A stretch of 64,000 bases of DNA from Candidatus Didemnitutus sp. Lineage in GTDB: Bacteria > Verrucomicrobiota > Verrucomicrobiia > Opitutales > Opitutaceae. The stretch is from positions 62,001-126,000 of the forward strand of contig JAHCAY010000005.1 of NCBI GenBank assembly GCA_019634575.1, read 5' to 3'. The position numbers were made by a program, and so were the translations under genes. Positions 437 through 30,057 of the stretch are shown here, one piece after another (positions within the stretch are counted from its first letter, which is position 1; each line of letters starts with the position of its first letter). The notes beneath the pieces are model-generated. The model worked only from the letters and a program-made list of their open reading frames with translations, was not told where the DNA came from and made no database searches.

Positions 437-1135
437 GTGGTGTTCCGTCCCCTCCCTGCCATCGTTGCAGCCGCCGGCCTGTTGCTGATCAGTGCCATCG
501 GACTTCAATTTTTCAGTGCCGCCCCGCCGGCGGCGACTCTCCACGTTCCGCTGGAAAAATTGGTCCCCCGCGACCTACCTGGCTGGTCCGTTCGCGACGT
601 GCCCCTTGCCGACACCGCCGAGGGACGCAATGCGGTGGAGGGAATCCTGCATTACGATGATTTCATCAGTCGATCCTATCGCCGCGGGGCAACCGAAGTC
701 ACACTCTACATCGCCTACTGGGCCCCTGAACGCGTGCCCCCGCGCTTGGTCGGACGCCACACGCCGGATCGCTGCTGGATAACCAACGGCTGGACGTGTG
801 ACTCGCGTCAACGCTCCGTCATCCTGACCGGCAGCGATGGCGCTCCTCTTCAGCCCGCCGAAGCAGGAACCTACTCCTTCAACAGTCAGACGACCCTTCA
901 TGTTGCCTTCTGGCATCTTGTCGGCGGCAAGGCTTATGCCTACGGCCCAGAGCAGTCCGACATGGTGGCGTTGGCCCCGCTGACCGATCTCAAGACCTTC
1001 GGCCTGAATCAGCGCCAAGAGCAGTTCTTCATTCGCATCGCCAGCAACGAAAAACTGGAGGCCTTCTGGACCGATCCGGCGTTCCGCACCTTGCTTCGCT
1101 CGATCGAGTCGCTGGGCATCGCCCGAGCGAACTGA
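437..1135 (+). CDS. EpsI-family exosortase-associated protein
   Basis: A 232-residue protein with one N-terminal membrane segment (about residues 7-26) and an exported domain. Residues 107-119 contain HTPDRCW followed by NGW, matching the H-x-P-x-x-C plus GW signature of EpsI/exosortase C-terminal-associated proteins. These accompany membrane exosortases that sort proteins or take part in exopolysaccharide production. The start is uncertain: GTG at 437 or 440 places the membrane helix at the N-terminus as usual, but there is no clear ribosome binding site, and the frame stays open upstream. It is the only plus-strand gene at this end of the cluster, and no exosortase is adjacent within the window. 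The EpsI assignment is good; the exact role is inferred. Confidence 0.75.
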   Translation: MVFRPLPAIVAAAGLLLISAIGLQFFSAAPPAATLHVPLEKLVPRDLPGWSVRDVPLADTAEGRNAVEGILHYDDFISRSYRRGATEVTLYIAYWAPERVPPRLVGRHTPDRCWITNGWTCDSRQRSVILTGSDGAPLQPAEAGTYSFNSQTTLHVAFWHLVGGKAYAYGPEQSDMVALAPLTDLKTFGLNQRQEQFFIRIASNEKLEAFWTDPAFRTLLRSIESLGIARAN

Positions 1136-1819
1136 TCAGAGCTCCAGCCAGGCGCGCAAATCGGCCATCGAGGCGACTTCCGCCTCGGCGGCTTCGGCCG
1201 CGCTCCCGACGTAAGCGGCATGCTCCCCTCCCGCGCGCCGGAAGCGCACTGTCCGCCAGCCGAGAGCCCGCGGCGCGATGAAGTCCTTCCGCGGATTGTC
1301 GGCGATGTAGACGTATCCCGCCGGCGAGCCGGGCAGCTGCCGCATCACTTCCCGGAACGGACGCTCAGACGGCTTCCAGGCCTCGCGCCCCCATTGATCC
1401 GAAAATACTTGCACATCGATCCAGCGCGAAACACCGAGCGCCGACGCCTTCCGTTTTTGGACCTCAAGAATACCGTCACTCAAAAGCGCCAGACGATAGC
1501 GCCCACGCGCCGCCGCGAGGATGGCCGCGCTTTCCGCCGGAAGGTCGATCGCGGGTCGATGGCCCCGGTAGACTGCGACCAGACGGCCAACCAATCCGTC
1601 TTCCCGCACTCCGAGTGCCGCGAGCGCTTCATCAAAAATCTGTCCCCGCCCACCAGCTGCGAACAGCGCCTCCGCCTGCGCGATAAACCCCTTCACTCCG
1701 CGTTCTGCGACCAACCACTCGTCGACGGTGCGAAAGCCGCTGAAGACATATTCACGCTCGGGATAAAGCGTGTCATCCAAATCGAAGACGAGCGTGTGCA
1801 GTCGTTCACTCTCCCTCAT
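1136..1819 (-). CDS. HAD-superfamily phosphatase
   Basis: A 227-residue HAD hydrolase. Motif I is FDLDDTLYP with the nucleophile Asp13 and Asp15. Motif II is LLSDG, a Lys in EAWKPS serves motif III, and IADNPRKD supplies the motif IV acid. The cap lies between motifs I and II as in the YjjG/pyrimidine-nucleotidase branch. The ATG at 1819 is preferred over an upstream ATG at 1858 because it overlaps the end of the ATP-grasp gene by only 14 bp and gives a normal family N-terminus. It is the last gene of the CDP-alcohol module, so the likely substrate is a phosphorylated sugar or polyol intermediate; that is inference. Confidence 0.85.
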   Translation of the reverse strand: MRESERLHTLVFDLDDTLYPEREYVFSGFRTVDEWLVAERGVKGFIAQAEALFAAGGRGQIFDEALAALGVREDGLVGRLVAVYRGHRPAIDLPAESAAILAAARGRYRLALLSDGILEVQKRKASALGVSRWIDVQVFSDQWGREAWKPSERPFREVMRQLPGSPAGYVYIADNPRKDFIAPRALGWRTVRFRRAGGEHAAYVGSAAEAAEAEVASMADLRAWLEL

Positions 1820-2786
1820 GCAGAAACACGGCAGCGTCATACCGCAGCATCGTGACACCCGCCCGCCATTCGCGGGAGTAGCTCGGCGCGCGGCCCAGGG
1901 ATTCCTCCAGCAACCACTTGGTGAAGCGCGCCCCGGCTTGATGCGCGAGCGGGAAGCCTCCGCCGAAACGGGCGTTGATCTCGAAGACCGCGAAGCTCCC
2001 GTCGTCGCGGACGATCGCCTGAAAACAAAGCGGGCCCCGCGCGCCGGTCAGCGCGCCCGCCAATTGCTCGGCTGCGTCCATCAGACACCGCAGGGCTACG
2101 GTCCGCCCTTTCGAAACCTCACCCGAGCGGACTTCGAGCCGCTCATGCGGCACGGCGCATTGGAGTTGCCCGGCAGGAGAGAAGAACACGTTCACCGTGT
2201 ATTCGCGCCCCACCGCGCATTCTTGGGCGATGAATGCCGGCAGCACGGCGGGAACCGACGCGAGCTCGCCGGCATGCTGCAGCCGCCGAATGCCGACGGA
2301 GGCGCTACCGGCAATGGGCTTCAGGAGCACCGGCCAACCTAGAGACTCGGGCCGGGCGCGCCACGAGTCGAACGGCATCGTTTCCGGAACAGGCACCCCG
2401 GCCGATTTCAACACGCGCGCGGTAGATTCCTTGTCGTTCGCAAGCGCGACTACGTCCGGACTCGAAACCACCACGCGCGTGCCGACCGCCGCAAAACGCT
2501 CCGTGCTCCGAGCGAGAACCGCCAGTTCGGGATCGATCGTCGGCACGAGCAGGCTGACGCGCTCTTCGGCGCAAATGGCCAACAAGCGATCGATGTAGTC
2601 CGGCGAAATGCAGCGCGGCACCGTGAACGCAGCGTCGGCCTCCTGGCACGCCGGGCTGAGGCGGGGATCCATGTCCGCAGCCAGCACGCGGAGCGCGATG
2701 CCCAACTCCGCCGCATCGCGACGAAAGCAACCGATGAGTTGATTTCGCCGGCCGGCGGAGGTCACGAGAATGGCACGTGTGCTCAT
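1806..2786 (-). CDS. ATP-grasp domain protein (carbamoyl-phosphate synthase/PylC-like ligase)
   Basis: A 326-residue protein. A Rossmann-like pre-ATP-grasp domain (ILVTSAGRRNQLIG near the N-terminus) is followed by an ATP-grasp fold with PVLLKPIAGSASVGI (phosphate-binding loop), IAQECAVGREYTV and FEINARFGGG, the last carrying the metal-binding Glu and Asn. Such enzymes couple a carboxylate to an amine or other nucleophile through an acyl phosphate. The ATG at 2786 overlaps the CDP-alcohol phosphotransferase stop by 4 bp, so a longer upstream reading of this frame is an artefact. The substrate cannot be read from the sequence; by context it modifies a precursor of the cluster's glycan. Confidence 0.85.
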   Translation of the reverse strand: MSTRAILVTSAGRRNQLIGCFRRDAAELGIALRVLAADMDPRLSPACQEADAAFTVPRCISPDYIDRLLAICAEERVSLLVPTIDPELAVLARSTERFAAVGTRVVVSSPDVVALANDKESTARVLKSAGVPVPETMPFDSWRARPESLGWPVLLKPIAGSASVGIRRLQHAGELASVPAVLPAFIAQECAVGREYTVNVFFSPAGQLQCAVPHERLEVRSGEVSKGRTVALRCLMDAAEQLAGALTGARGPLCFQAIVRDDGSFAVFEINARFGGGFPLAHQAGARFTKWLLEESLGRAPSYSREWRAGVTMLRYDAAVFLHEGE

Positions 2787-3430
2787 CGATTGGAAACCGT
2801 CCCACGATAGGTCAAGTGTGCCATCCGATCGATGATCAACCCGATTGAAGCCAGGGCGGCAAAAAGCAGAGGTTGCCCGGTCAAAGGCCCGAGTAGGATC
2901 ATGAAGTTTTGCACGTCGAGGGGCTCGAAAACCTCGCGCACACGATGGCGGTGGATCGCATCGTAAAGTGCCGAACTCTTCGCCACCCGCCAGATCTGTA
3001 ATCCGTAGTGGCCAACGTAAATAAGCCCGAGCCAAAGCTGGTGCGCCTCCGGACTGCTCCACCAAATCGCAGCAAGGCACATCACCTTCTTCGCCTTGTC
3101 GAGGGTCACGTCCAGCTTCGCTCCAAAGGGCGAGGTGATTCCGCGCTTCCGTGCAAGCTTGCCGTCCACCCCGTCCAACACGTAACCGAGTTGCCAGATC
3201 ACGGCGCCGATGACCCAATTCGCAGTTCCGCCCAGCGTATAAAAATAGACTGCGATTGAGTTGATGAGAAAAGAAATACAAGTAATCGAATTTGGTGACA
3301 GCCAGGACAACGGGCTCACCCATTCGGTCACGATGGCCGAGGCGGGCTCTAGCACGAAGATGTCGGTCCACGCCATGTAGCGTTTGACGTAAGGCTTTGC
3401 CAATTGGCGCCGGTAGAAGCTCAGGACCAT
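2783..3430 (-). CDS. CDP-alcohol phosphatidyltransferase family membrane enzyme
   Basis: A 215-residue membrane protein with several hydrophobic helices. It carries the complete family signature DG-x2-AR-x8-G-x3-D-x3-D (DGKLAR, then G-AKL-D-VTL-D), which binds the CDP moiety and two metal ions. The enzyme displaces CMP from a CDP-activated alcohol with an acceptor hydroxyl. It follows the nucleotidyltransferase gene by 2 bp and overlaps the ATP-grasp gene by 4 bp. In this setting it more likely transfers an alcohol phosphate to a lipid-linked glycan or lipid anchor than making a bulk phospholipid; that is inference. Confidence 0.9.
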   Translation of the reverse strand: MVLSFYRRQLAKPYVKRYMAWTDIFVLEPASAIVTEWVSPLSWLSPNSITCISFLINSIAVYFYTLGGTANWVIGAVIWQLGYVLDGVDGKLARKRGITSPFGAKLDVTLDKAKKVMCLAAIWWSSPEAHQLWLGLIYVGHYGLQIWRVAKSSALYDAIHRHRVREVFEPLDVQNFMILLGPLTGQPLLFAALASIGLIIDRMAHLTYRGTVSNR

Positions 3431-3432
3431 GA

Positions 3433-4170
3433 TCAGAGTTTTAATTGATTAAATAGTGCTTCGGCTTCCTTCAGCTCTTCAACCGTGTCGATCTCATACC
3501 ACTCCAGTCCGCTGACGTCGACACACTCCCACGGACGGGCGATCAGTGTGAAATCGATAAAATCCTCAAAAAGCCGACGAGACGTGTTTGGTCGCGCGAG
3601 AAAATTAGCGAGCATTCCGCGCCACGCGCCGTCGTCGGATTCCGTGTTGAAACGGTAGAGATCGAGTGAACACCCGGCCGCCTCCGCCGCCGTGAGTGTC
3701 TTCGCAATCTGCACCGCGAGCCCATCACCGCGCAGCGCGATTTTTTCGGATTCTTCGCTGTAACACGATCGATCCAAGGCAAACGCGAACGGTGCGCTGT
3801 GCGTCACCATCCGACGAATGACTTCGGCGTCGTAAACCACGTCGGAATTCAACACGAGTAGCTGACCACGTGCCTCGGCGAGCGCCAAGGCACACGATGC
3901 CAAGCTGTTCGTGCGCGCAAATTCGCTGTTCGTGATCACATTGAATGGCAGGCCAGCGAACTCGGCGTTTTCCAGATAGCGGCGCAACGCCTCGACCTGA
4001 TAGCCGCCAACGATATGAATCCGGCGCGGACGATGCGGACTCAACTGTTGGAGTAGACGACTCAGGAAGGTTCCCCCTTGGAAGGGAGCCATGCACTTGG
4101 GCCGATCATGGGTGATCGCAGCCATGCGCGATCCCAGGCCGGCAGCGAGAATTAGGATCTCATCAATCAT
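3433..4170 (-). CDS. Sugar/alcohol-phosphate nucleotidyltransferase (LicC-like)
   Basis: A 245-residue GT-A fold nucleotidyltransferase. The N-terminal signature LAAGLGSRM with downstream RPKCMAPF is the NTP-binding loop, and LNSDVVYD holds the metal-binding Asp. The C-terminal WYEIDTVEELKEAE is typical of LicC-type cytidylyltransferases acting on phosphocholine and similar phospho-alcohols. Being next to a CDP-alcohol phosphotransferase argues for CTP as donor. It overlaps the upstream Fe-ADH gene by 8 bp. Alternative: a hexose-1-phosphate nucleotidyltransferase. Confidence 0.85.
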   Translation of the reverse strand: MIDEILILAAGLGSRMAAITHDRPKCMAPFQGGTFLSRLLQQLSPHRPRRIHIVGGYQVEALRRYLENAEFAGLPFNVITNSEFARTNSLASCALALAEARGQLLVLNSDVVYDAEVIRRMVTHSAPFAFALDRSCYSEESEKIALRGDGLAVQIAKTLTAAEAAGCSLDLYRFNTESDDGAWRGMLANFLARPNTSRRLFEDFIDFTLIARPWECVDVSGLEWYEIDTVEELKEAEALFNQLKL

Positions 4171-5242
4171 GGGAAAGAGAACGAAGCAGACGCTCGACCG
4201 AGGAAGGTCCGACGAACGCAGGGTCCGCCGCCAGATCGCCAGTCACCTGCGCACTCAACGAAAATACGTCCTCCTGAGCGATTTCAATGCGTCGACTGGG
4301 CGCAGCCAAGCCGTGCACCGAAGGCAGAGTGACCCGCGCGAACTCCGTCGCGTCGGGACGCATGGTCGGGTTGAGCATTTTGGCCACTTTCCCGGCAGCG
4401 CTCGGCGAGGTTTCGATGAGCAAATCGAACCAGCCAGGGAACAAAGCCCAAATTCCTTCAACGTGTGTCGTATCCGTGGCCGGACCCAAAACGTATTGCA
4501 CGCGATGCGGCAGGCAGGTCGACGAAGTCGCGAGACACCGTCCGGCGTGAAATGCCGCACGCATCGCCGCGCCATAGCTAACCAGCTCCCTGCCTCCGTC
4601 CCGCCACCACGACCAGAATTCTCCCATGCCCTCTCGTGCGTGAGCGAGGGTTTCGACCGCACATCGCTTGCTCGCCGTGGTCTCGGCAAAATGAGCAAAC
4701 ACGTCGAAAGCGAAATGCGCACGTGACGCAGTCGGAAGCGAAGTCCACAGCGTTGGATCGTGGACCACGTCGTCTGGTTCGACCGACGGCCCGCGCAAAC
4801 CCATCTTTTGCGCGCCAACCGTGATGATTGCGCCCCGGCTACTCTCTGAACCGCTGCTCGCGATGCTCGGCGCCATCACCATGCGGGCTCTCGCATCCGC
4901 CGTGACTCGACCACCGGCCGCGAGCAGCGCGCCCAGCTCGGAGGCAGTGTGGAACGCGCGCCCCCAGTGCGCGACGACCTTGGCCGCATCGAGCGCGCGA
5001 CCACCTCCCACTCCCACAACTACCTCGGCCTTCCGCGCTGCGTCCCCCAGCCCGGCGAAGTCTTCCACGTGCGGCTCGCGCACGAGCCGCAGTCGTGAGT
5101 GCGACGGCACGCGCGGAAAAATCCGCTGGACGTGCGCCTCCATGCTCCGCGTGTAAACTAGGAATGTCCGCGAGGGATCAGCGTCCACGATAGCCGCCCA
5201 TGCCGCTTGGTCATGGATGTGGTGCAGTCGGGGACCGCTCAT
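4163..5242 (-). CDS. Iron-containing (group III) alcohol dehydrogenase-like protein
   Basis: A 359-residue dehydrogenase with a nucleotide-binding GVGGGRALDAAK (residues 77-88) and the family's SIASSGSE motif (126-133). Candidate metal ligands are Asp180, His184, His246 and His260, the usual Asp plus three His set. Relatives include phosphonoacetaldehyde reductase and glycerol(-1-phosphate) dehydrogenases, which reduce a small aldehyde or ketone with NAD(P)H. It sits between the FGGY kinase (4-bp overlap) and the nucleotidyltransferase, so it probably makes the alcohol that is then nucleotidylated. No phosphoenolpyruvate mutase or phosphonopyruvate decarboxylase is visible, so a phosphonate route is not supported here. 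Confidence 0.85.
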   Translation of the reverse strand: MSGPRLHHIHDQAAWAAIVDADPSRTFLVYTRSMEAHVQRIFPRVPSHSRLRLVREPHVEDFAGLGDAARKAEVVVGVGGGRALDAAKVVAHWGRAFHTASELGALLAAGGRVTADARARMVMAPSIASSGSESSRGAIITVGAQKMGLRGPSVEPDDVVHDPTLWTSLPTASRAHFAFDVFAHFAETTASKRCAVETLAHAREGMGEFWSWWRDGGRELVSYGAAMRAAFHAGRCLATSSTCLPHRVQYVLGPATDTTHVEGIWALFPGWFDLLIETSPSAAGKVAKMLNPTMRPDATEFARVTLPSVHGLAAPSRRIEIAQEDVFSLSAQVTGDLAADPAFVGPSSVERLLRSLSHD

Positions 5243-6708
5243 AGATTCTCCAACATGCCGTCTTCCGACTTCAGCTCTTCGCGAGGAAGAGTTCGGAGTT
5301 TTGCGAATTGCGGCTTCAATGTTTGGTAGAGCTCTCGAAAAATTTCATACTTTCGCTCGTAGAGCGCAGCAGACCCGGAGTCGGGAAGCACGATTTCGCG
5401 GCTGCGCACGGTTGTGTGAAACAGTTCAGTCAACGGGCGCCGTTTCACCAACTCGCTCTGGAAGCCGAGCAGGAAGGAGCCCATAACCGTGCTTTCAAAT
5501 TCAGCAACCACTTCCAGGGGCTGCCCGTAGACATCGGCTTTTATTTGGCTCGCCGCCCCCAGCCGGCTGAGACCGCCGCTCAAGCGGATGCGTCGAGGAC
5601 GAGTTCCATGCACCGCGACGATTTCTTCAATCAGACTGCGCCCCATGAGAGCTGCGCCTTCGAGCGTGGCCCGCGCAAAATGGCGTCTCCCGTGACTTCG
5701 CTCCAATCCGAAAAATACCCCGCGCGCATCGGAGTCCCAGAGCGGTGCTCGTTCGCCGAGTAAATAGGGCAAAAAAATCAGGGGGCACTGATCCGGCGGC
5801 AGGTCCCGCACATCGGCATCGATGTGTTCGTAGACGTGCTCGTGAGGAGGGTAAAACGTTGTCTTCAGCCATTCGATCAACCCGCCGCCGAGATTGGTGC
5901 TGCCGCCGACGTAGGTCAGACCCGGGACCGGCGCCGACTGCGTGAAGATTGCTCCCGTCGGATGCTGACTCGTCGCAGTGGACACCATTCGAATCGACGT
6001 GACCGTGCCAGACACGTCGCACAAATCTCCGACTTCCACCGCACCGCTTCCGATGACGGAGACGACGGCGTCATAGGAGGACACAAAGACCTTGGTTCCC
6101 CGGCCAACCCGGAACAACGACGCCACATCTTCATGAAGTTCAGCAACGGCCGAACCAACTGCGAGCACCCCCGGCAGTCGACGTAGCTCGTCTGCGCCAC
6201 ATCCAACATACTGACTGCATCGCGGGTCGTAGCCAAATTTCTCGGCGTTGAGCGGATCTGTGGCCGCCACACCTGTCATCCGGTAAATCAAAAAATCGTT
6301 CGGGCTCAGAAACCAAGCAGTTCGCTGGTGAATCTCGGGCTCCGTGTGGGCCAGCCAACGCATCCGCTGAATCATGACTGGTGTGCCGCTCGCCTCAAAG
6401 TGGCGATGGCGGCGGTCATTCACCATGATAATTGGACGGAGCAATTCGCCACGCTCACCCACGCAAACCAAACAGGAAGATGAGGCGGAGACCGTGATCG
6501 CTCTTATTTTCTCTGTCGCCACACCAGCCGCTTCCGCCTCTTGGAACAGACGGATAACAAGACGCCACCATTCCTCGCCATCCTGCTCCACCGCCTCACC
6601 GAAAATCACGGAATGCAGCGGATGGCTCCGCTTGTAGCGAATGTGTGCGTCGGAATCGACGACACACAGGCGGATGCTCTTTAGACCAAGATTGACTACG
6701 GCAAACAT
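5239..6708 (-). CDS. FGGY-family carbohydrate kinase
   Basis: A 489-residue kinase. Both FGGY domains are recognizable: MVNDRRH (substrate-binding Asp), SSYDAVVSVIG (catalytic base Asp), LPYLLGERAPLWD and RLSGGLSRLGAASQ with the C-terminal nucleotide-binding glycines. The usual N-terminal DxGTTS-R phosphate loop reads VVNLGLKSIRL, with Asn6 where Asp is expected and no Thr pair. The enzyme phosphorylates a sugar or polyol; the substrate is not deducible. It starts 3 bp after the aldolase gene and overlaps the Fe-ADH by 4 bp, suggesting a shared short pathway that feeds the CDP-alcohol enzymes. Confidence 0.88.
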   Translation of the reverse strand: MFAVVNLGLKSIRLCVVDSDAHIRYKRSHPLHSVIFGEAVEQDGEEWWRLVIRLFQEAEAAGVATEKIRAITVSASSSCLVCVGERGELLRPIIMVNDRRHRHFEASGTPVMIQRMRWLAHTEPEIHQRTAWFLSPNDFLIYRMTGVAATDPLNAEKFGYDPRCSQYVGCGADELRRLPGVLAVGSAVAELHEDVASLFRVGRGTKVFVSSYDAVVSVIGSGAVEVGDLCDVSGTVTSIRMVSTATSQHPTGAIFTQSAPVPGLTYVGGSTNLGGGLIEWLKTTFYPPHEHVYEHIDADVRDLPPDQCPLIFLPYLLGERAPLWDSDARGVFFGLERSHGRRHFARATLEGAALMGRSLIEEIVAVHGTRPRRIRLSGGLSRLGAASQIKADVYGQPLEVVAEFESTVMGSFLLGFQSELVKRRPLTELFHTTVRSREIVLPDSGSAALYERKYEIFRELYQTLKPQFAKLRTLPREELKSEDGMLENL

Positions 6709-6711
6709 GAT

Positions 6712-7554
6712 TCAGTCGGGAAGAATTGAGCGATATTTCCGGCGAAGCCCGCGGAAGAATGCACCGGAACGAACACGCAGCAGTCCACAAGCTTCCAAAG
6801 GCGACCCGGCCTGCGCCGCCGATTTCAGCACGTCCATCCACGCGACCTTCAGGTCCGTGCTGATATTGAGCTTGCAATGTCCGCCACACACCAACCGTCG
6901 AACGATCTTAAGATCCATTCCGGAGCCGCCATGCAACACGAGAGGCGTGCGGGGCAGCGCATGTGCAACCTGCCGCATAAGCTCTAAATCGAAGTGCTCA
7001 TTACCGCGGTAGTGGCCGTGCATATTACCAAAGCCCACAGCCAGCGTGTCCGGCTGCACTGCGTGGTAATAGCTCACCACGTCCTCTAAAGCTGGAATCA
7101 TTTGCTTGTGGTCGCTTCCCATCCCGTCCTCAACACCCGCGACGTGGCCGATTTCGCATTCGACCAGAACATCCCCGCGCAATCGGTGAGCAATTCGGAC
7201 CGCGCTGCGAGATTCCCTGATATTTTCCTGCAACGGAAGTCCGCTACCGTCAAACATCACCGAGTCAAATCCAGCCCGGACACAGCGCCTAAACAGGGCA
7301 TGGTCCGCGCAATGATCCAGATGAAGCCAGAGCCGATTTCGAGCGACCAAGCGTTTCCACGCGACCACCTCTGTGGGTTCATGCAGCGAGAAAAAACGGG
7401 CCGAGAATTGCGCGATGACCGGCGTGCCCCGGTTGCTGAACTCTCGTGCCAGCGCACTCAGTGATTCAAAATCAAACACATTGACCGCAAGTAAAGCGGC
7501 CCCACGGGCGCGTGAGGATGAAAGAGCAGTGGCTAGAGAACTCGAGTGGCGCAT
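6712..7554 (-). CDS. Class II (ketose-bisphosphate-type) aldolase
   Basis: A 280-residue zinc aldolase of the FbaA/GatY/KbaY family. Visible are LHLDHCAD (catalytic Asp80, Zn ligand His81), GFDSVMFDGS, ECEIGHVAG (Glu134), FGNMHG (Zn ligand His179), LHGGSG (Zn ligand His208) and KLNISTD (Asn230). It cleaves or forms a C-C bond between dihydroxyacetone phosphate and an aldehyde. It is upstream of the FGGY kinase by 3 bp and therefore belongs to the CDP-alcohol module, not to central glycolysis. Substrate unknown. Confidence 0.88.
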   Translation of the reverse strand: MRHSSSLATALSSSRARGAALLAVNVFDFESLSALAREFSNRGTPVIAQFSARFFSLHEPTEVVAWKRLVARNRLWLHLDHCADHALFRRCVRAGFDSVMFDGSGLPLQENIRESRSAVRIAHRLRGDVLVECEIGHVAGVEDGMGSDHKQMIPALEDVVSYYHAVQPDTLAVGFGNMHGHYRGNEHFDLELMRQVAHALPRTPLVLHGGSGMDLKIVRRLVCGGHCKLNISTDLKVAWMDVLKSAAQAGSPLEACGLLRVRSGAFFRGLRRKYRSILPD

Positions 7555-7578: not shown

Positions 7579-7869
7579 TCAGTCGAAAGAGCCCAGCCAT
7601 GCTTCGAACATCAGAATGGCCCACAGTCGATGCTGGTGATTGCGTGTGCCGCTAAGGTGCTCACGCCACAGCGCCTGCACCGGCGCCGGATCGAAATATC
7701 CGGTTCGCCCTAATCGAGCCGGACTGGGGAGATTCGCTCCCCACGGCGCAACTGACCGCGGAGACCAACGTGCATGTGAATCGTCACCGGCACCCGATTC
7801 ATGAGCGGCAGCTGCAATAGCGAAACGGCTCCCCAGTCTTTCATTGGTCTTCACGCTCGCCCGGTTGGA
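7579..7869 (-). pseudogene. Decayed C-terminus of an asparagine synthase (asnB remnant)
   Basis: The last 45 codons (7579-7719, ending WAILMFEAWLGSFD) align with the ends of the two intact AsnB proteins at 14173 and 20652: YFDPAPV..LWREHLSGTRNHQHRLW matches FLDPQPV..MWHEHLTGTR..LW. Further upstream the homology jumps frame. One frame carries PLMNRVPV and LRGQLR, resembling the AsnB segment PKMGFGVPI plus LRGPLR; the neighbouring frame carries WGANLPSPARLGRTG. Two compensating single-base indels would explain this. Less than a sixth of a normal AsnB remains, so it cannot be functional. It lies between the aldolase and an SDR gene, possibly marking an old rearrangement junction. Confidence 0.7.
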
Positions 7870-8607
7870 TCAATGCAATGTGCAGCCACCGTCCACAACG
7901 AGTTCGGTTCCGGTGATCCAGCGGGACGCCGGTGAAAGGAGGAACGCTGCCGCCTTCGCGGCGTCCATCGGTAGCCCTTTGCCCAGCGGATAGCGCGCGC
8001 TGTATGCGGCCGCTTGGGCGACGGTCTGCAGACGGTCCGCAGATTCAGCCATCGGCGTCTCCAACATGCCCGGCGAGATCACGTTGACCCGGATGGGAAC
8101 CGCAGCCAGTTCCACGGCCATGCAGCGAACCGCCGCCGACAAAGCAGCCTTGCTGGCGGAATACGCTGTGTATCCAGTGGATCCGCGCAGTCCGGCCACG
8201 GACCCCAACAGAACCACCGAGGCGCCCGGATTGAGGCGACGGCCTCTGACCAACTCACGAAGCAGGGCCAGCGGTCCTTCCGTGTTCACCGTGAATATCC
8301 GACGGAGCAAGGTGGCATCGGTCATTACCAGCGGCCGGACCGCCGTGATGCCTGCAGAAAACACGACGCCATCCAATCGCGGCATCTGCTGCACGACGGC
8401 GGCAAAAGCCGCTGCGTTTTCGAGATCAAAGGCGACGCGAGCCCCCGAGGGCAGATGTTCAGCCTCCTCGACCTTCCGGCTGCACAGGACCAGCCCGGCG
8501 CCGAGTTGGCCGCAGAGCGTCGCGCAGGCTCGGCCGACGGCGCCGGTCGCCCCGACGACCGCGATGGTCTTGCCCTGTAGACCGAAAATTCCCTCGACGA
8601 CGCTCAT
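7870..8607 (-). CDS. Short-chain dehydrogenase/reductase (FabG-like)
   Basis: A 245-residue SDR. The cofactor loop is GATGAVG (19-25), with SAG in the central region, Asn108, catalytic Ser136 and the pair Tyr149/Lys153 in YSASK. The C-terminus WITGTELVVDGG is typical of FabG-like members that reduce 3-oxoacyl groups or sugar ketones. It overlaps the ACP gene by 4 bp and is followed only by the asnB remnant. A likely role is reducing the beta-keto product of the KAS III-like enzyme while it is bound to ACP. Confidence 0.85.
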   Translation of the reverse strand: MSVVEGIFGLQGKTIAVVGATGAVGRACATLCGQLGAGLVLCSRKVEEAEHLPSGARVAFDLENAAAFAAVVQQMPRLDGVVFSAGITAVRPLVMTDATLLRRIFTVNTEGPLALLRELVRGRRLNPGASVVLLGSVAGLRGSTGYTAYSASKAALSAAVRCMAVELAAVPIRVNVISPGMLETPMAESADRLQTVAQAAAYSARYPLGKGLPMDAAKAAAFLLSPASRWITGTELVVDGGCTLH

Positions 8608-8828
8608 TGCGTCCCGAGATTAAAGATGTCCCGCACGGTCTCGCAGCCCCCGAGTTGCTGCCCCGAAATCTGTCGGCCGAAGCAGGCATCGAAGGTCGCG
8701 AGAGTCGTCAACGCGGCCAAGGAGTCCCAGATCGGCAGATGCCGAAAGTTCGTGTCCGGCGAGAGTGTGCCTGGTTCGAGACCGATCAGATTGGCTTCGA
8801 GTTCCTGGATGAATTTGTCAATGGTCAT
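8604..8828 (-). CDS. Acyl carrier protein (first copy)
   Basis: A 74-residue acidic four-helix protein. WDSLAAL provides the DSL motif, with Ser36 as the site for the 4'-phosphopantetheine arm. It overlaps both neighbours by 4 bp (SDR and KAS III-like gene), so it should be made stoichiometrically with them. It differs clearly from the second ACP at 11905 and from a housekeeping AcpP, pointing to a dedicated carrier for the cluster's acyl group. Confidence 0.88.
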   Translation of the reverse strand: MTIDKFIQELEANLIGLEPGTLSPDTNFRHLPIWDSLAALTTLATFDACFGRQISGQQLGGCETVRDIFNLGTQ

Positions 8829-9919
8829 GGCGGAAAGGCATTCGAGGATTGGTCATACTGATGGAGCGAACAGTGAGTTAGTGGGCCGAGGGAGAGCACG
8901 CAGCTAGCCCACGAAAGCCCAACGCCGAAGCCGGAGCAGAGGACCTTCAAGGACCGCCCGCTCACCTGCGAGCCGAGCGCGTCGCAAATCGCCGCCGGCA
9001 CAGACGCCGAGCTCTGGTTGCCAAACCGCTCGGCTGTTCGCCATGGCACTTTCTCTAGCGGGGCCTTGATGCGCTTGGCCAAGTTCGAAAGTATGAAGCG
9101 ATTAGCTTGGTGAAAGACGAACGCGTCAATGCTCTCCACGGCATGTCCGCTGAACTCCAAAAGCTCACGCACAGCCAGAGGTTCCTCCCGCAAGGTGAAA
9201 TTGAATACCTCGATCCCGTTCATGAACAGGTCGTCCGGTGCGCGCACGTTTCCATCCGCATCCGTCGCCTCCACCGCCGTGGCAGCCGAACTCGGCAGAC
9301 GGTGCCCACCAGCCGGAATACAGATCGCCGAGTGCCCCTTGCCGTCGGAATGCAGCGAAAACCACGACGAATCCTCCGAACCGGTGCGCTCGATCAATGT
9401 CGCTGTGCCAGCATCTCCGAACAGAGGCACGACCGCACGATCCCGGGGGTTGATCGTCTGTGTCACCGTGTCGCCGGCCAGCAACAGAACCCTCCGGCAA
9501 CCACCAGCCTGCACCATGCCGTAGGCAAGGTAGAGACCGTAGACCCACCCCGAGCACCCTTGGTTGATATCGAAGGCCGCCGCCGACTTGGTCAGGCCAA
9601 GCCGTCCGTGGAGAAGATTGGCGTTGCACGGTTGCCAGTGGTCCGGCGTCTGGGTCACGCAGACAACAGCGTCCAGCGAGTCGGCAGCAACACCAGCACC
9701 GGCAAGCAAGCACCGCGCGGCGGATTCACAAAGATCGAGAGTGGTGACCCCTGGGGGAGCGACGTGGCGCGAATGGATGCCCACCAAGTTCCGCAGCCGT
9801 TCCAGTTGGATCGGCTCCAACGCCAGGGCTTGAGCGTCCTGTTCCAGAGTCCGTGACAGCGGTCCGGTGCAGGTGGAAATGCCGCTGATGCGCGCTTGGG
9901 TGAATTTCGCCTGAGGCAT
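8825..9919 (-). CDS. 3-oxoacyl-ACP synthase III-like (KAS III) enzyme
   Basis: A 364-residue thiolase-fold condensing enzyme. The KAS III triad is present: Cys122 in INQGCSGWVYG, His270 in VFHQAN and Asn301 in ERFGNQSSAS. The ATG at 9919 is chosen because upstream sequence in the same frame overlaps the SDR gene and lacks homology. KAS III enzymes condense an acyl-CoA with malonyl-ACP. Its place between two ACP genes, two SDRs and an AMP-ligase inside a polysaccharide cluster suggests it builds a short acyl substituent rather than starting bulk fatty acid synthesis (inference). Confidence 0.88.
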   Translation of the reverse strand: MPQAKFTQARISGISTCTGPLSRTLEQDAQALALEPIQLERLRNLVGIHSRHVAPPGVTTLDLCESAARCLLAGAGVAADSLDAVVCVTQTPDHWQPCNANLLHGRLGLTKSAAAFDINQGCSGWVYGLYLAYGMVQAGGCRRVLLLAGDTVTQTINPRDRAVVPLFGDAGTATLIERTGSEDSSWFSLHSDGKGHSAICIPAGGHRLPSSAATAVEATDADGNVRAPDDLFMNGIEVFNFTLREEPLAVRELLEFSGHAVESIDAFVFHQANRFILSNLAKRIKAPLEKVPWRTAERFGNQSSASVPAAICDALGSQVSGRSLKVLCSGFGVGLSWASCVLSLGPLTHCSLHQYDQSSNAFPP

Positions 9920-9926
9920 GACTGGT

Positions 9927-10655
9927 TCAGATGGTGCCGGAGTCCACGAAGATGTTCTGACCGGTGATGGACGTCGCCCCGTCACCAAGCAGGAACGCCA
10001 CCGTGTCCGCAACCGAGTCAAGTTTGGTCGCCTGCTTGAGCGCCGTGCGGTTGTAGATCCGCTGCCGTTGCTCCTCGTTCAGCTTGTCGCTCATGGCTGT
10101 CTCCATGAATCCCGCGACGAGGCAATTGGAGCGAATGCCGCGCTCGCCCCACTCCCGGGCCGTGTTTTTCGAGAAGGCTTCCAGCGCGCCCTTCGTCGAC
10201 GCATACATCGCCAACCCCTTGTAGCCGGTATGCGCGCTGATGGATGAGATGTGGATAACGGATCCCTGCACCCGATGGAGGAGCATGTGGCGAATCGCAT
10301 ACTTGGTGACCATCATGGGCGCGAACACATTCACCTCATACATCGCCCGCAGCCGGTTCGCATCGAGGTTGGTGACAAGGTCGTCGTAAGCCATCGCCGC
10401 GTTGTTCACGTAGCCGTGCAACACCGTGCCGAAGGGCACGAATCGGCCAAAGAGATCCTGCTTGACCCGGTCGACACAGCCCAGGTCGAACTCATGGAAA
10501 TGAACCCGGTCTGGGTATCGCCCCTGAAGGACGGCATATTCAGGAGAATGCCGACGGCTGACCCCGTAGACGCTCCAGCCGGCCTCGGCCAGTGACGAGG
10601 ATATCGCCAGGCCCAACCCCTGCGAGACACCAGTGACGAGGATGTTCTTGCTCAT
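9927..10655 (-). CDS. Short-chain dehydrogenase/reductase (second copy)
   Basis: A 242-residue SDR with cofactor loop GVSQGLG (9-15), NNA (84-86), catalytic Ser near 137 and Tyr151/Lys155 in YASTK. The C-terminus SITGQNIFVDSGTI is FabG-like. The ATG at 10655 overlaps the AMP-ligase stop by 4 bp, and the gene ends 7 bp before the KAS III-like gene. With the SDR at 7870 it gives the module two distinct reductases, which could act on different chain positions or on an acyl versus a sugar substrate. Confidence 0.85.
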   Translation of the reverse strand: MSKNILVTGVSQGLGLAISSSLAEAGWSVYGVSRRHSPEYAVLQGRYPDRVHFHEFDLGCVDRVKQDLFGRFVPFGTVLHGYVNNAAMAYDDLVTNLDANRLRAMYEVNVFAPMMVTKYAIRHMLLHRVQGSVIHISSISAHTGYKGLAMYASTKGALEAFSKNTAREWGERGIRSNCLVAGFMETAMSDKLNEEQRQRIYNRTALKQATKLDSVADTVAFLLGDGATSITGQNIFVDSGTI

Positions 10656-11908
10656 GTGCGCGAAAGTTTGCCGGTGCGGGTCGTTGCGAGTTGGGAGACG
10701 AAGCGAATGATCCGGGGGATTTTGAAGGGTTGCAATCGTTCCGCCGCGTAGGCGCGGATCTCGGTTTCCGTCACTAGGCCGACGAATGCGTCGAGTAGCA
10801 CGATCTCTGCACAAAGGATATGCCCCATGACTGAGTTCTTCCGGCCAAGAACGCGCACCTGCCCAACACCGGGATGTGCAGCGAGGACAGCCTCCACCTC
10901 GTGGGGGTTAACTTTGCTCCCGCCGACATTCACCCAATCCCGTTCGCGTGCGACGATCCGAAAGCGCAAGGGCTGCTCCGAAACGATCTCGACCATGTCT
11001 CCCGTCGCATACCAGTCGCCAGCCAAGGGGCAACCGGCGAATTCGCCAAGCAATGCACGGTGCACGTTCAGCTGACCTTCGCGCACCGCGATGCGGCCCT
11101 CCAATCCCGGAGCGATCGCAAAAACATCTCCATCGGCCACCAGCAGTGTCCCCGCCTCCGTCGAAGCGTAGACATTGTGCACGCGCGCATTGGGGAACAG
11201 GGCGGAAACCTTGGCCACCAGCGGTCCGTCAGCACGCTCTCCTCCGAGCGTCACTGACCGAACGCCCGGCAGCGAGCGATCCACGGGCAAGAGCAAGCGG
11301 TAGAAGCTGGGAGTCGCCGATATGTGTGTGACCCGGTGGCACGACAGCGCGTCGAGCACGCCAGCCCGGTCCAGACCCTGAACGTCAACCACCGTGCAAC
11401 CGTTGGCGAGTGCTTGCAGGTAGACCTGGATCCCGGCTACGTGCGTCGGATTATACGCGAACGCCCAGATTGCCTCGGCGTGCCTCGTCGAGACTTTAAC
11501 GGCCCGAGCCAGATTGGCCACGCTCTGCCAGACGAGCTTGGGCAGTCCCGTGGAACCGGAAGTGAACAGACCCAATCGCGCTCGGGATCCGCCCGCCGCT
11601 AGCTGCGCGAGTGAGGCTATGGTCAGCGTCCCGCCCGCGATCATCGTTGTTGGCTGGTTCAACTGGACCGTCGAATAGCCAAGGGCTTCGATTTCACGTG
11701 CACCGAAATCATGATCGAAAAGTGTGAGGTCAGCATCCCGCGCCACGGCCAGCGTCACCTCCACCAAAGCCTCGTTCGTGGACGCGGGCTGAAAGCAGGG
11801 ACGCAGCGTCGCCGTCCGGGCGTTCAACCGGGCGAGTAGCTCGGCATACTTGGTGCGAAGCCCGCTGCGGGCATCAATTAGCCAATCTCGGTCTGTGGCC
11901 TCGTTCAT
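10652..11908 (-). CDS. AMP-dependent acyl-CoA synthetase/ligase-like protein
   Basis: A 418-residue ANL-superfamily adenylating enzyme. Motifs in order are FTSGSTGLPK (P-loop), YASTEAG, YATGD, RERDWVNVGGSKVNPHEVE (hinge) and a terminal RTGKLSR with the catalytic Lys. It is shorter than typical fatty acyl-CoA ligases (about 500 or more residues), the loss being in the N-terminal half. With ACP genes on both sides (4-bp overlap with the second ACP) it probably activates a carboxylic acid and loads it onto ACP. Confidence 0.85.
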   Translation of the reverse strand: MNEATDRDWLIDARSGLRTKYAELLARLNARTATLRPCFQPASTNEALVEVTLAVARDADLTLFDHDFGAREIEALGYSTVQLNQPTTMIAGGTLTIASLAQLAAGGSRARLGLFTSGSTGLPKLVWQSVANLARAVKVSTRHAEAIWAFAYNPTHVAGIQVYLQALANGCTVVDVQGLDRAGVLDALSCHRVTHISATPSFYRLLLPVDRSLPGVRSVTLGGERADGPLVAKVSALFPNARVHNVYASTEAGTLLVADGDVFAIAPGLEGRIAVREGQLNVHRALLGEFAGCPLAGDWYATGDMVEIVSEQPLRFRIVARERDWVNVGGSKVNPHEVEAVLAAHPGVGQVRVLGRKNSVMGHILCAEIVLLDAFVGLVTETEIRAYAAERLQPFKIPRIIRFVSQLATTRTGKLSRT

Positions 11909-12162
11909 CCCTTGCGACTGCCAGTGAGCCTGTCGTGGATCTCGCCCACCGTGTTCACAAGACCGTCCGCAAACACGTCGACGCCAAACTCCTCTTCGAT
12001 ACGCACCGTCAATTCGGCGAGATCCAGCGACTCGAATCCGAGATCCTCGCGCAACCGGTCCGTCGATTCGAGTGCTGGCAATAGCGGCAGGGCTTTGTTG
12101 GCCCTAACTTGATTCACGATAACGAGGAGCTTGTCGTTCATAGAAATGTCGGAAGCGGCCAT
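11905..12162 (-). CDS. Acyl carrier protein (second copy)
   Basis: A carrier protein of about 85 residues. LREDLGFESLDLAEL holds the phosphopantetheine Ser (S in ESLD), followed by the usual acidic helix II (RIEEEFGVDV). Two starts are reasonable: ATG at 12162, and ATG at 12141 (7 codons shorter). A still longer reading would run into the deacetylase gene. It overlaps the AMP-ligase by 4 bp, the natural partner for loading. It is the more canonical of the two ACPs here. Confidence 0.85.
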   Translation of the reverse strand: MAASDISMNDKLLVIVNQVRANKALPLLPALESTDRLREDLGFESLDLAELTVRIEEEFGVDVFADGLVNTVGEIHDRLTGSRKG

Positions 12163-13115: not shown

Positions 13116-14176
13116 GAGGGTATGGCTTCGAAGCCGTAATCGCCCGCCGAGGGCATGAAGGAGTGCTTGATCCCGCGGAGTCCACGCTCGCGATGGTGCA
13201 TGAGCGTGATGGGACGCCGCGACCAGACGCTGAGATCACTGCGTTCCAACCACTGGTTGCTGCGAGACTCGCCGCCCATGACCAGGAGCAGGTGGGCACC
13301 CGCGCGGCGCGCCGCAGCCCGGACAAGGCTCAGCAAGACGGCAAGGGCCTGCTCATCTTGGACGCGCCAGTCAACGACTCGGGCGACGGCGAGGCCATGA
13401 CGCCGCCCCAAGGACACCATCGCGAAACCAGCAATCGCTCCCTCTTGCCGGAGCTCAAGCACGCGGTGGGCCGGACCGCAGGGATGGAAGAATCGCCAGA
13501 ACATGACCTCCGGGTTCCACCATTGGGCAAAGGCTGCGTCGTCTGGCCACGCCTGATTGGCGTAGGCAGCGTGATCGGCAACTTCGCCAGCTTCGCGCGG
13601 CTGCCACAGTCGCCACGCAAATCCCTTCGTTTGGCCCCGTTTTGTTTCATCGTCGGAGAACCACCCAACCGAAGTCGAAGAGTTGGGCCTGATCCGCTTC
13701 CATGCAAGTTGCACACCCGCTGCGACGGGCCGCAGCCAAGATGCCCTCCAACAGGTATCAAGGTCGGCGTATCCCAGCCGTCGCATGCCGCCCGCCCAGG
13801 CTTCATGTGTGCCTGGCACCAGGACGTGCTTTTCCCCAAAGATGGCTTGTGCCGAGAGCAGTCCACCAGCTCCGCTCTTGCGGTGCTCCGCCAGCACCAT
13901 CGTGTTTTGCGGCGCAGCCACGGCGATCTCGGTCCCGAGCCAGCGCCAAGGCATGCGCTGCACATGAATGCACCCGACCACCCGCCCGCCAGCATCGACG
14001 GCCAAGTGGAAATCGCGAGTCCGGCCGCGACTCAACGGTGCCTCGTCGTAAAGCCAGCGGAGATAATTCGGTGACGCTTGGTAGGCCTGCGGACCAAAAC
14101 TTGCCCGGGCGAACACGAGGTAATCCAGTTCCCGCTTCGCTTCGCCTGCAACAATCCGGATGTCGTGGCAACTCAT
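13112..14176 (-). CDS. GNAT-type acyltransferase (probably double domain)
   Basis: A 354-residue cytoplasmic protein. The N-terminal half has a GNAT-like core: a long beta stretch (FHLAVDAGGRVVGCIHV) and VLAEHRKSGAGGLL, resembling the acyl-CoA pyrophosphate loop V-x-x-x-x-R-x-x-G-x-G. The C-terminal half repeats the pattern more weakly (VLELRQEGAIAGFAMV). FemAB/Eis-like double GNAT proteins have this size. The ATG at 14176 overlaps the asnB stop by 4 bp. It is a plausible acyltransferase for the group built by the ACP module; the acceptor is unknown. Confidence 0.65.
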   Translation of the reverse strand: MSCHDIRIVAGEAKRELDYLVFARASFGPQAYQASPNYLRWLYDEAPLSRGRTRDFHLAVDAGGRVVGCIHVQRMPWRWLGTEIAVAAPQNTMVLAEHRKSGAGGLLSAQAIFGEKHVLVPGTHEAWAGGMRRLGYADLDTCWRASWLRPVAAGVQLAWKRIRPNSSTSVGWFSDDETKRGQTKGFAWRLWQPREAGEVADHAAYANQAWPDDAAFAQWWNPEVMFWRFFHPCGPAHRVLELRQEGAIAGFAMVSLGRRHGLAVARVVDWRVQDEQALAVLLSLVRAAARRAGAHLLLVMGGESRSNQWLERSDLSVWSRRPITLMHHRERGLRGIKHSFMPSAGDYGFEAIPS

Positions 14177-16119
14177 CGATTTGCGTCCAGCCAAGATTGG
14201 AACATCAGCACTGACCAGAGTTGGTGCTGGTTGGATCGCCTGCCGCTCTGGTGCTCCGTCCATGCTTCTTGAATCGGCCCAGAGGCGAAAAATCCGTCAC
14301 GTTTCAGTCGGTCCGCCGCGAGCAGTTCCGCTGCCCATTCCCGCAGCGGTCCCCGCAGCCAATCCCGGATGGGCACGCCGAATCCGGCCTTCGGCCGTTC
14401 GAAGAGCTCCCTCGGCACATGGCGGGCCAGCACGTTGCGCAAAAGCCGCTTCCCCACCCCACCCTGCATGTGGGTCGCTGCCGGAACCCGCCACGCGAAA
14501 CGCACAAGTTCGTTGGCGAGAAACGGCACCCGCACCTCCAGGCTCGCCGACATCGCCGCCCGATCCACCTTGCAGAGCATGTCATCAGGCAGGCAGGTCG
14601 TCAGATCGTGAAACATCATCCGTTGCACGAACGGCATCTCGCCGGGCAGGAGATGAAATTCTGACGTCGCCGGGGGAAGTCCGGCACCGAGCACAATCAT
14701 CCCCGGATCGGGCCACATCGTGGCTAGCTGGACATAGAGCTCCTCAGGTGAACGGGCCCAGGCGGCCCGAGCGAGCTTGTGCAGCTTGTCCCCGGCCCCG
14801 CGCACCCTCAGTCGGGACGGAAGCACGGGCGCCATGAAGTCGGCGAACTTCGTCCACGTGGCCGGCCGCCCGGCCATGATCGCCTGGGCCAATCCTGCGC
14901 GTAGCACCAGCGGGAGCCTCGCCAACCGCGGCCACACCCGTGCGCTCCACAGGTAGCGGTTGTAGCCGCAGAACAGCTCATCGCCCGCATCGCCGGACAG
15001 GGCCACGGTCACATGGCGGCGCGTGAAGCGCGATACGAGGGTCGTCGGGACCTGCGACGAGTCGGCAAAGGGCTCATCGTAGATCCCGGGCAGTTCCGTC
15101 ACCAGCGCCAGCGTCTCCTCGGCGGTAACCTGATGCTCGTGATGTTCGGTTCCGAGATGCCGGGCAACCTGCTTGGCATACGGGGCCTCATCGAACGGCG
15201 AATCGCCAAAACCGATGGTGAAGGTCTTCACGGGTCTTCCGCTCTGCGCCTGCATCAACGCGACGATGAGTGACGAATCGATCCCTCCCGACAGCAAGGC
15301 GCCCAAGGGCACATCGGCCACCATCCGCTCACCGACCGAGCGCCGCAGCAGATCTTCAAGCTCATCCACGAGCAAGGGGTCATCCGCTGACCGTGTCTCC
15401 ACATCACGGGTCTCCAGCAGGTTCGACGCCGACCAGTAGGGCGTGGGCTCCGACAGCCCTCCGCCGAGACGGTAGACCAGAAACTGACCCGGCTGGAGCT
15501 TGCGGCAACCTTGGTAGATGGCGAGCGGCCCGGGCACGTAGCCGTGCCTCACATAGTGCGCCAACGCCACCCGGTCGATCCGGCGATCGAATTCAGGATG
15601 CTGGCGGAGTGCCTTCAGCTCCGAGCTAAAAAGGATCCCGCGGGCGGTCGCGGCGTAATACAGCGGCTTTTCCCCGATGCGATCACGAGCGAGGGTCAGG
15701 GTGCTTTCTTGCGCATCCCACACCGCGAACGCAAACATCCCGTCGAGCCGCCGCAGCGTTTCGACCTCGCCCCATTCGCCCAGCGCATGGAGGAGCACCT
15801 CGGTGTCAGACTTGCCCACGAACCGCGCGCCCCGCTGTTCGAGCTGCGCCCGGAGGATGCGGAAGTTGTAGATCTCGCCATTGAAGACGATCGTCCGTCG
15901 GCCATCCGGCGAACGCATGGGTTGTGCCCCCGAGGGAGTCAGGTCGAGAATCGAAAGCCGCCGGTGCCCGAGGTGGACGCAGTTGTCCGCACTCTGCCAG
16001 CCCCCGGCTTCGTCGGGTCCACGCAATCGCAGCGCATCGCGCATGCGGTGCAGGATCTCCCGATGCTCAGGCGCTGACCGCTGGGGCTCCTGAACCATGA
16101 ATCCCGCAATGCCGCACAT
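14173..16119 (-). CDS. asnB: Asparagine synthase-type amidotransferase (first copy)
   Basis: A 648-residue glutamine-hydrolysing AsnB. Cys2 is the glutaminase nucleophile (MCGIAGF), RRLSILDL and FNGEIYN shape the glutamine site, SGGIDSS (277-283) is the PP-loop of the synthetase domain, and SGDAGDELFCGY follows. The ATG at 16119 is required to expose Cys2. In exopolysaccharide clusters such proteins usually amidate a uronic acid carboxylate rather than making asparagine. The neighbouring UDP-sugar dehydrogenase makes that reading sensible. It overlaps the GNAT-like gene by 4 bp. Confidence 0.9.
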   Translation of the reverse strand: MCGIAGFMVQEPQRSAPEHREILHRMRDALRLRGPDEAGGWQSADNCVHLGHRRLSILDLTPSGAQPMRSPDGRRTIVFNGEIYNFRILRAQLEQRGARFVGKSDTEVLLHALGEWGEVETLRRLDGMFAFAVWDAQESTLTLARDRIGEKPLYYAATARGILFSSELKALRQHPEFDRRIDRVALAHYVRHGYVPGPLAIYQGCRKLQPGQFLVYRLGGGLSEPTPYWSASNLLETRDVETRSADDPLLVDELEDLLRRSVGERMVADVPLGALLSGGIDSSLIVALMQAQSGRPVKTFTIGFGDSPFDEAPYAKQVARHLGTEHHEHQVTAEETLALVTELPGIYDEPFADSSQVPTTLVSRFTRRHVTVALSGDAGDELFCGYNRYLWSARVWPRLARLPLVLRAGLAQAIMAGRPATWTKFADFMAPVLPSRLRVRGAGDKLHKLARAAWARSPEELYVQLATMWPDPGMIVLGAGLPPATSEFHLLPGEMPFVQRMMFHDLTTCLPDDMLCKVDRAAMSASLEVRVPFLANELVRFAWRVPAATHMQGGVGKRLLRNVLARHVPRELFERPKAGFGVPIRDWLRGPLREWAAELLAADRLKRDGFFASGPIQEAWTEHQSGRRSNQHQLWSVLMFQSWLDANR

Positions 16120-16120
16120 A

Positions 16121-30043: not shown

Positions 30044-30057
30044 GGCCCCCTCCCGGC

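Follow-up and report, generated by a model that had tools for sequence, protein, structure and literature searches.

A candidate CDP-alcohol pathway encoded by a five-gene cassette in an exosortase-type exopolysaccharide locus of Candidatus Didemnitutus sp.

Does a run of seven contiguous genes in a genome of Candidatus Didemnitutus sp. encode one new pathway? These genes lie on the minus strand at positions 1136-7554 of a 64,000-nucleotide stretch, hereafter the window (contig JAHCAY010000005.1, positions 62,001-126,000, assembly GCA_019634575.1). The original prediction read them as a single cytidine diphosphate (CDP)-alcohol route, leading from an aldolase to a CDP-alcohol transferase and including an ATP-grasp ligase and a HAD hydrolase. 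We checked the open reading frames of the window and indeed found all seven contiguous, and the family names given to them were upheld by Pfam and NCBIfam. The real unit, however, is a cassette of five genes at 2783-7554 and not the seven genes. We propose that this cassette supplies a small alcohol phosphate, neither choline nor a phosphonate, activates it with cytidine triphosphate (CTP) and joins it through a phosphodiester to a carrier, lipid or glycan, of the exosortase-type exopolysaccharide, a proposal to which we give an even chance of being right.

A cassette of five genes

The cassette consists of the following genes:

6712-7554, minus strand: class II (FBA/TBP-type) aldolase, cassette gene 1 (Pfam F_bP_aldolase, 2.3e-59; KbaY/AgaY in the PDB, 4e-29)
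5239-6708, minus strand: divergent FGGY carbohydrate kinase (FGGY_N and FGGY_C; gluconate and xylulose kinases in the PDB)
4163-5242, minus strand: divergent iron-containing alcohol dehydrogenase, Fe-ADH (Pfam Fe-ADH, 6.7e-16)
3433-4170, minus strand: LicC/PntC-type nucleotidyltransferase, predicted CTP:alcohol-phosphate cytidylyltransferase (NTP_transf_3; profile and motif comparison)
2783-3430, minus strand: CDP-alcohol phosphotransferase (Pfam CDP-OH_P_transf, 8.1e-16; complete motif)

None of the five reading frames is interrupted or shortened, and the genes are tightly packed, with spacings of +3 bp (aldolase/FGGY kinase), -4 bp (FGGY kinase/Fe-ADH), -8 bp (Fe-ADH/nucleotidyltransferase) and +2 bp (nucleotidyltransferase/CDP-alcohol phosphotransferase). 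Past the cassette, the ATP-grasp gene begins after +41 bp and overlaps the HAD gene by about 50 bp. Upstream of the cassette we observed a 315-bp gap, which holds the remains of another gene:

7580-7866, minus strand: AsnB-type amidotransferase C-terminus remnant, at the seam between the cassette and an acyl-ACP cassette (58 aa aligned with each of the two intact AsnB proteins of the window, at 45% identity)

Since the spacing is tight and there is a clear break on either side, marked on one of them by the AsnB remnant, we consider the five genes as one unit. The G+C content of the cassette as a whole is 0.588, and the mean of its five genes is 58.4% versus 63.3% for 17 neighbours (Mann-Whitney p = 0.009). 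The cassette was probably acquired horizontally. A scan for promoters and terminators gave results at chance level only.

Activation and transfer of the alcohol phosphate

In the nucleotidyltransferase we find the N-terminal loop, Asp110 and, at the C-terminus, WYEID. The residues of the metal site are present, namely Asp110 of the xD motif and Glu226 and Asp228 of the C-terminal ExD; in LicC, Glu216 is named as a metal ligand (PMC6697681). When compared with solved structures, a profile of this protein gave 98.5 bits with LicC (1JYK), 94.4 bits with PntC (6PD1) and at most 69 bits with sugar nucleotidyltransferases, this profile being made of the cassette protein and four LicC-like relatives and hence tilted toward LicC/PntC. 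In a single-sequence search PntC was the top match (1.2e-5), over the N-terminal half only. At the level of sequence, the enzyme is closer to LicC and PntC than to sugar-1-phosphate nucleotidyltransferases, in agreement with the label "LicC-like" that it had first received.

PntC and LicC activate 2-aminoethylphosphonate (AEP) and phosphocholine, respectively, with CTP for surface tailoring, and their pockets face the amine with Asp105 and Asp192 in LicC and Glu104 and Glu196 in PntC (PMC6697681). In the cassette enzyme, Asn108 occupies the position of LicC Asp105 and PntC Glu104, and Glu202 that of LicC Asp192 and PntC Glu196. Asn108 would fit a hydroxylated rather than a cationic alcohol substrate, without proving it; an equivalent Asn is also present in a nucleotidyltransferase that adjoins an aminotransferase in a locus of the same family (L041). 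That locus (G520:C401, from the same-family genome G520) contains the aminotransferase, the LicC-like nucleotidyltransferase and two tandem CDP-alcohol transferases, and thus has the same module with another supply.

The CDP-alcohol phosphotransferase has a complete motif, as had been claimed: DGVDGKLARKRGITSPFGAKLDVTLD matches D..DG..AR-x8-G-x3-D-x3-D. Its nearest profiles are AF2299, the choline/ethanolamine phosphotransferases (CHPT1/CEPT1) and IPCT-DIPPS, all of them users of CDP-alcohols. IPCT-DIPPS, inositol-1-phosphate cytidylyltransferase/di-inositol-phosphate synthase, follows the same logic of a cytidylyltransferase with a CDP-alcohol transferase, and both domains are weakly similar to those of the cassette, but in the reference they are fused; the cassette scores far under the equivalog cutoff and contains no inositol-phosphate synthase.

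Pairs of such a nucleotidyltransferase and a CDP-alcohol transferase recur elsewhere, together with aepX and aminotransferases in Mesorhizobium, with an aminotransferase in Sulfitobacter, and with neither in Pseudomonas. In the Mesorhizobium AR02 and Sulfitobacter SK012 plasmid pairs the gene of the LicC-like enzyme adjoins that of the transferase, as in the cassette, but aepX and/or an aminotransferase is present there and the proteins are 21-28% identical over the alignment. Because the nearest profiles of the transferase are users of CDP-alcohols, because PntC and LicC activate with CTP and because the pairs recur, activation with cytidine monophosphate (CMP) followed by transfer is, by homology, the best-supported part of the predicted pathway. 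In this the cassette resembles the Pnt and Lic systems, where a nucleotidyltransferase of the same class activates a small alcohol phosphate or phosphonate with CMP for cell-surface tailoring (PMC6697681). It differs from them in having no phosphoenolpyruvate (PEP) mutase and no LicA or LicD beside the nucleotidyltransferase, in its CDP-OH family transferase and in a supply by aldolase, FGGY kinase and Fe-ADH.

Supply genes

The aldolase keeps the metal ligands His81, His179 and His208 and the catalytic Asp80, as judged from motif positions. In Fe-ADH, alignments and positions show that the metal ligands Asp180, His184, His246 and His260 are kept; its nearest NCBIfam models, both weak, are 4-hydroxybutyrate dehydrogenase and PsrA. 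The catalytic base of the FGGY kinase, Asp212, is retained in a motif alignment with 11 homologues, and its best NCBIfam models are XylB and GntK. The three classes are those of FucK, FucA and FucO (FGGY kinase, class II aldolase and Fe-ADH), but the cassette aldolase belongs to the FBA/TBP family, the score with the L-fuculokinase model is 58.6 bits (cutoff 470.9), and the cassette contains no sugar uptake genes. Structures predicted from single sequences were of poor quality (pLDDT 40 and 47), and no fold search was based on them.

ATP-grasp and HAD genes

We then considered the two remaining genes of the seven, and their neighbour:

1806-2741, minus strand: ATP-grasp ligase, carbamoyl-phosphate-synthase-like (PylC-like/ATP-grasp_3), exopolysaccharide block (50-60% orthologues beside HAD/EpsI)
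1136-1855, minus strand: HAD hydrolase, same exopolysaccharide block (Pfam; 44-59% orthologues adjoining ATP-grasp)
437-1135, plus strand: EpsI-type protein (DUF3485), marker of exosortase/exopolysaccharide loci (Pfam PF11984, 1.9e-12; relatives)

Eight genomes from the same genus or family encode an orthologue of the ATP-grasp protein, 50-60% identical to it. The gene stands together with that of the HAD protein (44-59% identity) in six retrieved loci of relatives; in five of them the trio ATP-grasp, HAD and EpsI is contiguous (L076, L077, L079, L081 and L082), and in the sixth (L078) EpsI is 5.7 kb off. In locus L080, ATP-grasp adjoins EpsI and HAD was not detected. By tblastn, none of the five cassette proteins had a match in the ATP-grasp loci of relatives, of at most 19.5 kb each. 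In G179, a genome of the same genus, EpsI, SDR and KAS III are found together, without ATP-grasp and HAD and without the cassette. The loci of relatives thus carry the blocks in differing combinations; therefore the exopolysaccharide locus is modular and the cassette is limited to 2783-7554.

From these comparisons, ATP-grasp and HAD are to be placed in an older exopolysaccharide block, outside the cassette. What stood of the seven-gene route is a LicC/PntC-type nucleotidyltransferase beside a CDP-alcohol phosphotransferase, tightly packed with three alcohol/sugar genes; the membership of ATP-grasp and HAD was given up, as the trio with EpsI is found in relatives that have no cassette. The possible amide that the ATP-grasp ligase was thought to add was dropped for the same reason. 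In the family, the trio is a block kept in exosortase exopolysaccharide loci, usually with a DegT-like aminotransferase after it. In the source genome, EpsI is inverted relative to ATP-grasp and HAD.

Distribution of the cassette genes

A conserved neighbourhood in related genomes, which the original prediction had proposed to look for, was not observed: ATP-grasp and HAD occur without the five genes, and no orthologues of Fe-ADH, the FGGY kinase or the CDP-alcohol phosphotransferase were found in the genomes sampled. For Fe-ADH these were 388 genomes of the phylum (here and below, Verrucomicrobiota only), 373 of the order and 213 of another class, as well as plasmids. The few matches obtained were generic Fe-ADHs at about 30% identity, those from the phylum lying in unrelated gene contexts. 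For the CDP-alcohol phosphotransferase there was none in 252 genomes of the family, apart from one relative at 29%. The best identity of the FGGY kinase was 30% in 204 genomes of the phylum and about 30% on plasmids.

Exact-peptide scans of 85,000 species genomes gave no match, a weak negative as one used 6 peptides, aimed at relatives of Fe-ADH, and the other only 2, picked with the help of a steered alignment to which artificial decoy rows had been added. Scans of viral contigs gave no match. Orthologues of the cassette may well exist outside the phylum. In the literature on CDP-polyols and on such a combination of genes, we found no direct match.

Proposed pathway and alternative explanations

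In the proposed pathway, the aldolase would form or cleave a ketose-1-phosphate (dihydroxyacetone phosphate plus a short aldehyde), Fe-ADH would reduce the carbonyl product to an alcohol, and the FGGY kinase would phosphorylate a primary hydroxyl. The LicC/PntC-type enzyme would make the CDP-alcohol, from which the membrane CDP-alcohol phosphotransferase would pass the alcohol phosphate to the acceptor. ATP-grasp and HAD would be active elsewhere in the polysaccharide pathway. Homology and intact motifs point to the two last steps; the first three and their order are what we infer, the succession of aldolase, reduction and phosphorylation being chemically the simplest. In the best reading, the supply route is the new part, and the module for CMP activation and transfer is already known. 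More tentatively, we suggest that aldol chemistry, reduction by Fe-ADH and an atypical FGGY kinase make up an undescribed pathway to a CDP-polyol or another hydroxylated CDP-alcohol, by which the exosortase-type exopolysaccharide or its lipid carrier would receive a new alcohol in phosphodiester linkage. If so, the CMP-activation and transfer logic of phosphocholine and phosphonates would reach an alcohol from aldol/dehydrogenase chemistry, giving a phosphodiester at the surface that would escape any genome mining for phosphonates based on PEP mutase, and a defined set of five genes would be at hand for in vitro reconstitution.

Several observations weigh against this pathway. The cassette was seen in one genome only, where the functional linkage of its genes rests on their packing. 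The acidic residue Glu202 is kept in the amine pocket of the nucleotidyltransferase, so an amine-bearing substrate is possible. The nucleotide motif of Fe-ADH is GGGR and not GGGS. Finally, the phosphate-1 motif (DxGT) of the FGGY kinase is non-canonical, with an Asn (NLGLKS) in place of a near-invariant Asp, the 11 homologues having Asp or Glu. This Asp is important for catalysis in the FGGY kinase superfamily, and the activity of the kinase is therefore uncertain.

The same substitution, together with the AsnB remnant at the seam, could indicate that the cassette is a degrading or non-functional import, a recombination relic with an inactive kinase; but its five full-length open frames and the intact catalytic motifs of the four other proteins make this very improbable. 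The strongest rival is that two units are adjacent by chance, a tailoring pair of nucleotidyltransferase and CDP-alcohol phosphotransferase and an unrelated trio resembling fucose catabolism (as FucK/FucA/FucO). The enzyme classes of the trio equal those of ketose catabolism, as known for these families, the pair is found without the trio elsewhere, and no second genome with both was found. However, the overlaps of 8 bp between Fe-ADH and the nucleotidyltransferase and of 4 bp between the FGGY kinase and Fe-ADH, the position of the trio within the exopolysaccharide locus and the lack of a sugar transporter or regulator in the cassette speak for one unit, and we regard chance adjacency as rather unlikely.

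A phosphonate is a further candidate for the activated compound. Enzymes of the PntC type would then act on 2-hydroxyethylphosphonate or AEP, with Fe-ADH as phosphonoacetaldehyde reductase. PntC and LicC are the nearest solved relatives of the nucleotidyltransferase, other relatives are found in aepX loci, and Fe-ADH weakly matches PsrA (TIGR03405, 51 bits; cutoff 423.7). Yet the known phosphonate routes give no role to the aldolase and the FGGY kinase, and in the genome, 99.87% complete, there is no TIGR02320 match over cutoff; the PF13714 matches lack EDKxxxxxNS, and the only members of the PEP mutase family are PrpB-like and isocitrate-lyase-like. The absence of the usual phosphonate genes, noted at first in the window, thus holds genome-wide. 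With no PEP mutase to be recognised in the genome, the product is unlikely to be a conventional phosphonate, and we regard phosphonate tailoring as highly improbable. Neither LicA choline kinase nor LicD was found among the typed neighbours of the nucleotidyltransferase, the rest of the genome not having been searched. Somewhat less improbable, but still quite unlikely, is a CDP-glycerol-like route, in which Fe-ADH would produce glycerol or glycerol phosphate by reducing a triose, and two secreted GDPD-domain proteins would trim the glycerophosphate diesters built by the locus. Glycerol kinase is an FGGY kinase, and two such GDPD proteins, of a type limited to 1 of the 13 genomes of the genus, lie in the locus. 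However, the FGGY kinase is not glycerol-kinase-like, its best models being those named above, and the link with GDPD is a coincidence in a single genome.

Surrounding locus

The cassette is surrounded by genes for EpsI, XrtA-type amidotransferases, GT4 glycosyltransferases, a MurJ-like flippase and Wzy-like ligases; further in the locus are TviB/TviC-like sugar enzymes, an acyltransferase and a module of AMP ligase, ACP, KAS III and SDR. The locus is of the exosortase-type exopolysaccharide class (PMC1569441). The protein content of the source genome points to Verrucomicrobiota. Full-length AsnB/XrtA-type amidotransferases are encoded at 14173-16332 and 20652-22631, both on the minus strand, and a third one in the left flank (L024:3970-5994).

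The two secreted GDPD-domain proteins are related to each other and are encoded on the minus strand, one at 28592-30103 and the other just left of the window (L024:15370-18228). Ig and NHL domains are also present in the left one, whose C-terminus is a Gly-rich tail resembling a sorting signal. No secreted GDPD protein of that form was found in the 12 congeners, the source genome being alone among the 13 of the genus. In this one genome, these proteins could act on phosphodiesters.

The acyl module stands next to the cassette:

7870-12130, minus strand: separate acyl module of SDR, ACP, KAS III, SDR, AMP ligase and ACP (families and spacing; SDR and KAS III beside EpsI in G179)

This module possibly makes a hydroxyacyl decoration.

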